Part shown: positions 2,024 through 2,193 of the stretch, piece by piece | Layout of the letters: each line of letters opens with the position of its first letter | Position numbering within the stretch: the stretch's first letter is position 1 | Assembly (NCBI GenBank): GCA_030630935.1 | Contig: DAOVMD010000265.1 | Coordinates: forward strand, 1 to 5,018 | DNA length: 5,018 nt | Direction of reading: 5' to 3' | DNA from: Candidatus Mcinerneyibacteriota bacterium | GTDB taxonomy: Bacteria > AUK180 > JAQVHJ01 | Translations under genes and position numbers: made by a program | The notes under the pieces: generated by a model | The model's input: the letters and a program-made list of their open reading frames with translations, nothing else | The model's database searches: none | Told to the model about the DNA's origin: nothing

Positions 2024-2028
2024 CTCCC
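2024..2028 (-). promoter_or_regulatory. Ribosome binding site of the barrel gene
   Basis: On the minus strand GGGAG is followed by a 9-base A/T spacer and then the ATG at 2014. This is a good Shine-Dalgarno match and supports the chosen start, which also places the signal peptide at the N-terminus. It lies outside the hairpin at 2041-2064, so that hairpin does not itself hide it. Confidence 0.65.
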
Positions 2029-2040
2029 GTTAAACTATGG

Positions 2041-2064
2041 TTCTGTGAAATTTTTTTCACAGAA
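2041..2064. repeat. Perfect 10-bp inverted repeat (hairpin) upstream of the barrel gene
   Basis: TTCTGTGAAA at 2041-2050 pairs perfectly with TTTCACAGAA at 2055-2064 around TTTT. GG at 2039-2040 can pair with CC at 2066-2067 across a one-base bulge. It lies 27 bases upstream of the barrel start, in its probable 5' untranslated leader. It could be a leader hairpin or a protein-binding site. No T-run follows on either strand, so it does not look like an intrinsic terminator. Confidence 0.7.
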
Positions 2065-2088
2065 ACCGGTTATTATTTACTTACATAT

Positions 2089-2130
2089 GTCAGTTGCACG
2101 ATTTGTCAATTGACAAATCGTGCAACTGAC
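2089..2130. repeat. Perfect 42-bp palindrome
   Basis: Each half is 21 bases and every base pairs with its partner about the centre between 2109 and 2110, with no spacer. The core is TTTGTCAATTGACAAA and the outer part is GTCAGTTGCACG and its complement. Pairing stops cleanly at 2088/2131. In RNA it would form a very stable hairpin; in DNA it could be a large dyad operator or a cruciform-prone site. It sits 75-116 bases upstream of the barrel gene on the minus strand. A repeated extragenic palindrome or a remnant of a small mobile element is also possible. There is no T-run on either side for a terminator. Confidence 0.9.
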
Positions 2131-2136
2131 CAATTA

Positions 2137-2151
2137 TACAATAAAATTGTA
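2137..2151. repeat. Small 6-bp hairpin beside the large palindrome
   Basis: TACAAT (2137-2142) pairs with ATTGTA (2146-2151) around AAA, six bases beyond the edge of the 42-bp palindrome. It is AT-rich and weak. It is listed because it is the third hairpin in a row between 2041 and 2151. Confidence 0.45.
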
Positions 2152-2158
2152 AGAATTT

Positions 2159-2193
2159 CAAAACTATTTTTTAGTCACATTTCCTCTTACAAA
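2159..2193 (-). promoter_or_regulatory. Weak candidate Bacteroidota-type promoter for the barrel gene
   Basis: On the minus strand TAGTTTTG (2159-2166) fits the Bacteroidota -7 consensus TAnnTTTG, and TTTG at 2190-2193 could serve as the -33 element. The 23-base spacing is a little long. It is the only TAnnTTTG match I found on that strand in the bases just upstream of the gene. Transcription from here would begin near 2152 and place all three hairpins in the leader. In AT-rich DNA such matches occur by chance, so this is tentative. Confidence 0.2.

Follow-up and report, generated by a model that had tools for sequence, protein, structure and literature searches.

Among described systems, those closest to the locus studied here are the ArsR/SmtB repressors with their operators, the REP sequences that accompany RAYT genes, and MITEs that carry protein-binding sites. 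In the ArsR/SmtB systems (SmtB, CzrA, SdpR, BigR), the gene for a small winged-helix dimer adjoins an inverted-repeat site, as it does in relatives of the genome studied here, and the site may overlie the promoter. REPs are dispersed extragenic palindromes, of several types per lineage, that bracket their own cognate genes; in REPINs these are the RAYT genes (PMC3116915). Correia elements with an IHF site are short MITEs with terminal inverted repeats, and they can bring a protein-binding site near promoters (PMC10969869). We did not find the combination of these known parts in the open literature, nor an account there of palindrome-flanked ArsR cassettes; most subscription journals lay outside this search.

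The window, by which we mean the whole stretch of 5,018 nucleotides that was analyzed, contains a perfect 42-bp palindrome (PAL) at positions 2089–2130, without strand, as delimited by a repeat search and by comparison of its copies. The arms (2089–2109 and 2110–2130) are 21 nt each, 100% complementary and separated by 0 nt of spacer in the repeat search, and the symmetry stops abruptly at T2088 and C2131, which do not pair. At the 33% GC of the window, with a pair probability of 0.28 and base composition alone considered, about 1.3e-8 such palindromes are expected per 5 kb and 8e-6 per genome of 3.16 Mb. Intrinsic terminators have a G+C-rich stem-loop followed by a U-run; PAL has neither loop nor T-run, and a terminator scan of 1900–2900 returned none. 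The sequence-only reading had described just such a zero-spacer palindrome with sharp ends, unlike a terminator, and was right on both counts. Two details call for correction: the part kept between copies is 32–40 bp, so that few copies have the outermost pair in common, and PAL is a repeat instead of a single-copy feature. The conserved family core spans 2094–2125 (TTGCACGATT-TGTC-AATT-GACA-AATCGTGCAA). An Rfam search of the window gave no match.

A minus-strand ORF of 558 aa (338–2014), which was characterized from the ORF list and by family and homologue searches, has its ATG (position 2014) 74 nt downstream of PAL. The ORF has a signal-peptide-like start and resembles a secreted or outer-membrane protein without relatives. 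The earlier placement of PAL upstream of an outer-membrane gene is accurate as to position, but the label, which reflects the appearance of the translation, found no match in Pfam or NCBIfam. No homologue occurs in the six other genomes of the taxonomic class, so the same promoter is not comparable in relatives. A predicted sigma-70-type promoter for this ORF, TTGAAA-N17-TATAAT (11 of 12 consensus positions; 2133–2161, minus strand), directly adjoins PAL; it is a consensus match, to be read against a background of 5.5 matches per shuffled kilobase at a looser threshold. The start site implied by this promoter would fall at about 2126, inside PAL. The RNA leader of the gene is predicted to form a 19-bp stem with a z-score of -8.2. 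Closer to the gene are a second, shorter leader hairpin (TTCTGTGAAA/TTTCACAGAA; 2041–2065, minus strand), about 25 nt before the start codon and belonging to a separate dispersed family, and a Shine-Dalgarno-like GGGAG (2024–2028, minus strand), read off the sequence 9 nt before the ATG.

The option of a repeated extragenic palindrome or mobile remnant, one of several raised from the sequence, is confirmed by the copies of PAL in its own genome (3.16 Mb, 471 contigs, 80% complete). A 161-bp query around PAL gave dozens of matches in this genome, and the 32-bp core pattern occurs at 20 places with three or fewer mismatches. When any base was allowed at the four middle positions of both arms, the pattern TTGCACGATTNNNNAATTNNNNAATCGTGCAA was found to occur at two or fewer mismatches in at least 24 places, compared with 0 for a reversed-pattern control. 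The search of genome and relatives suggested earlier also located this pattern at 1–3 places in each of five genomes from another family of the same class. The window genome's own family was represented by one further genome (72% complete), which contained no copies, and viral collections held no exact match to the palindrome. The own-genome copies occupy distinct loci with different flanks, as singlets and not as inverted doublets.

Two settings account for all but three of the copies. In class A, about 15 own-genome copies lie within MITE-like elements of 130–300 bp (measured 129–301 bp) whose inverted ends read CTATATAACTGCGCA; one end is truncated in some of these elements. These copies are intergenic and occur in both orientations, many at 100–500 bp from genes. 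At least four other types of palindrome are found between these ends as well, among them TCGCGATTTCGTATATACGAAATCGCGA (C46) and AATGTCGCGATTTCGTAATTACGAAATCGCGACATT (C424). No clear target-site duplication was seen by eye at the elements, no pair of inverted ends more than 301 bp apart was recognized, and no parent transposase was found. In class B, 6/6 copies, that of the window included, lie 23–79 nt before a start codon and in the same direction as the gene. None of the class B copies has MITE-like inverted ends, and the window copy in this respect differs from Correia-type elements, as does the varying type of palindrome found inside the same ends. At two class B loci (L051 and L043), the palindrome is immediately preceded by a stretch (AAATATTTGGTAGAG) similar to the end of the ArsR-like gene described below. 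As a side observation, the elements of the window genome with other palindromes between the same inverted ends (C46:9959-10259, L263; C424:902-1202, L326; C433:2769-3090, L042; C175:10453-10617, L327) look as if the palindrome had been swapped and the ends retained.

Comparison of copies reveals constraint on the arms. Over 23 distinct copies, 95.9% of arm positions are paired, a value reached by 0/500 shuffles, and six pairs have changed on both sides, again matched by 0/500 shuffles. One-sided G-U changes are rarer than two-sided ones (4 vs 21 cells), and copy L048 has lost the identical single nucleotide from both arms. Variation is seen at the four middle positions of each arm (TGTC, GGTC, GGCC, TCGT, TCTC). 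An alignment of 14 class A copies gives a diversity of 0.022 for the outer arms and of 0.19–0.23 for the flanks, roughly a nine-fold difference. Template switching both creates and repairs perfect stems (PMC8794818), and within a copy it could maintain the symmetry. The low outer-arm diversity across copies is not explained by such a within-copy process, which argues that something recognizes TTGCACGATT. PAL is, like the operators of ArsR/SmtB repressors, a dyad-symmetric site with constrained half-sites.

A candidate for the recognizing protein emerges from the relatives. In one of them (G004), the same palindrome flanks the gene for a 93-aa winged-helix protein: one copy is 93 nt upstream of the ATG and the other 8 nt downstream of the stop codon. 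The protein is of the ArsR type (HTH_5, E 3e-16), and its nearest solved structures are SmtB, HlyU and CzrA. A second relative (G006) has the same palindrome 2 nt after the stop of an ArsR-like gene 71% identical to that of G004. In a subfamily sample of 15 genes from five genomes, which includes some orthologous pairs and is not fully independent, a zero-spacer palindrome follows within about 45 nt of the stop in 12/15; in a few of these cases the palindrome is weak or has mismatches (L089 has three mispairs and L104 is short), and the downstream palindromes of L102, L108 and L103 are only weak or imperfect. An upstream palindrome is present in 6/15, mostly of the same sequence as the downstream one. 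The arrangement occurs in 0/14 other ArsR genes of the class; 71 ArsR genes from other phyla have isolated palindromes or hairpins only, none strongly common to both sides, and the longest stretch common to both sides is 13 nt.

The type of palindrome differs between ArsR paralogs (ATGTCGCATTGTCGTAATTACGACAATGCGACAT, CGTATGTTCGTATATACGAACATACG, TAGTACTTTCGTATTTAGCTAAATACGAAAGTACTA and others), and its likeness tracks the likeness of the proteins (Mantel r 0.73, p 5e-5; r 0.55, p 0.011 with near-duplicates removed), a match that can also arise from shared cassette descent without binding. Additional ArsR-like genes of the class (L103, L104, L099, L093, L114) have different palindromes, or short tandem repeats such as ATATGCGAATATGCGAATATGCG, on their downstream side, which hints at still other recognition types. 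Compared with known ArsR/SmtB operators, the sites here are long perfect palindromes located on both sides of the gene or after its stop; they are specific to the paralog, are scattered as solo copies and have no constant operon partner. In relatives the palindrome after the stop codon is more regular than the one before the gene. The upstream palindrome stands 13–93 nt from the ATG and, in G004, well upstream of a consensus promoter, so simple autorepression misfits some cases.

No ArsR gene of the subfamily was found in the window genome, which is 80% complete; a cognate ArsR may be or may once have been present there. The three ArsR genes that this genome does contain are of other kinds. 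Own ArsR genes near class A copies (in the thioredoxin operon of C109, and in C223) have ordinary-looking neighborhoods, and their proximity was put down to coincidence or to insertion of a MITE nearby. The viral collections yielded only two distant ArsR relatives, neither of them with a palindrome.

The complete unit seen in relatives, palindrome–ArsR-like gene–palindrome, measures about 410 bp and recurs at unrelated loci. The neighboring genes at the various loci are unrelated to one another and include dapF, a TldD-like gene, transketolase, cyclase-type ATPases and a pRiA4b ORF-3 protein (names were read from translations, that of the pRiA4b ORF-3 protein by Pfam). In G002, three loci have the palindrome-to-palindrome stretch in common at about 83% identity with different surroundings downstream, two of the three also having some 5′ flank in common; a fourth cassette locus in this genome is internally deleted. 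The dapF locus of G003 is 94% identical to that of G002 up to the dapF stop and then diverges, with no cassette. Its downstream side is not conserved, so this locus does not provide a clean empty site. The unit contains no transposase gene. We believe, from its recurrence at different loci, that the cassette is probably mobile.

We somewhat favor the interpretation that PAL is a dispersed palindrome recognized by a lineage of winged-helix repressors of the ArsR/SmtB type, and that it covers the predicted start of the outer-membrane-like gene. The window genome shows solo palindromes only, about 15 in MITE-like elements and six just upstream of genes. An ArsR-like homodimer would bind the two-fold symmetric PAL; the bound repressor, lying over the start site, would block RNA polymerase and the 558-aa gene would be repressed. 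The parts of this proposal differ in strength. That PAL is a binding site is likely: the dyad-site option raised earlier gives the best account of arm conservation and is supported by the linkage to cognate ArsR-family genes in relatives, though the binding itself is deduced from these patterns. That PAL regulates the 558-aa gene is conceivable, and we would sooner doubt it than assert it. Counting against an operator are the own-genome copies themselves, most of which are in MITE-like elements and many of which are 100–500 bp from genes; at copies so placed no regulation is expected. The window PAL could also be the relic of a lost cassette. A bolder and more doubtful idea is that the ~410-bp palindrome-ended cassette is a new minimal mobile element with an ArsR-like gene as its sole gene and a lineage-specific palindrome, its solo palindromes, left at promoters, rewiring regulation; it would resemble REP-RAYT with a repressor in place of the transposase.

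The REP/REPIN systems themselves offer an alternative, in which PAL is the single-stranded hairpin used by a Y1 (RAYT-type) transposase in trans and the ArsR genes are passengers. PAL is dispersed, intergenic and palindromic and flanks a small gene in the way that REPs flank RAYT genes (PMC3116915), and Y1 transposase genes are present in 7/7 genomes of the class. However, such a palindrome is near 0/30 of the Y1 loci examined as opposed to most ArsR-subfamily genes, the bracketed gene encodes an ArsR-like DNA-binding protein and not a Y1 transposase, the palindromes are perfect and have no spacer, and the inverted doublets typical of REPINs are absent from the singlet copies of the window genome; we regard this alternative as unlikely. 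The main functional rival, given the predicted 19-bp leader stem, is a role in RNA, with PAL as a hairpin at the mRNA 5′ end (for stability, as an RNase III site or in attenuation) and the ArsR genes using it as a 3′-end hairpin. In keeping with this role, PAL lies within or beside leaders in class B and directly follows stop codons in the cassettes. Yet no U-run follows the stem, the scarcity of one-sided G-U changes is that of a symmetric DNA site, the roughly 15 copies within MITE-like elements lie in either orientation, and ArsR paralogs differ in their exact type of palindrome. The leader hairpin raised by the sequence-only reading would fold strongly as RNA, but nothing ties PAL specifically to RNA, and we hold this role to be rather improbable.

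PAL might instead be selfish debris without function, the core of a MITE family whose symmetry results from correction of one arm by the other through template switching in replication. The MITE-like elements that contain PAL, the other palindrome types enclosed by the same ends and the symmetric deletion of L048 all fit such an origin. It leaves unexplained why diversity between loci is nine-fold lower in the outer arms, and why the palindrome is matched with ArsR genes in other genera, and we consider it very unlikely. An assembly fold-back artefact, a worry raised at the outset, has a negligible chance of being correct: contig C117 does start inside a copy, so that copies do disturb assembly, but 24 distinct loci with different flanks and independently assembled genomes contain the palindrome.

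If the recognition-palindrome interpretation is true, it links a repressor family, long perfect palindromic sites and dispersed repeats, which are usually studied apart, and it shows a route by which a bacterium gains many operator copies at once. The matched repressor–site pairs would be a natural series, within one small uncultured class, for studies of recognition, and the question raised is what moves a cassette that has no transposase gene.

Other repeats were observed along the way. The second leader hairpin (TTTCTGTGAAWAAAMATTTCACAG at window 2041–2065, minus strand; also L310–L323 and L043) belongs to a family with at least 15 scattered copies, the majority of which lie 24–26 nt before a start codon. 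It is usually preceded by a dyad, CCTGTAAATATCGTATTATTCGATAAATAACAGG, in the place where the window has the 42-bp palindrome. Rfam gave no match for this family, and the idea that its upstream parts are the end of a gene was dropped after translation in all frames. On the minus strand of L310 (140–176), in the same genome, there is a match to abiF RNA (RF03085, 54 bits, above the gathering score). Within the window, the direct repeat TTTCGTGTTTTTCGCGTCTTCGTGG occurs twice at 198–272, and a 37-bp inverted pair (2225–2261/2607–2643) is built around TTAACCACTGATCACACGGAACACACTGA. Stretches resembling GTGTGTTCAGTGGTTAA recur upstream of other leaders of the same genome.
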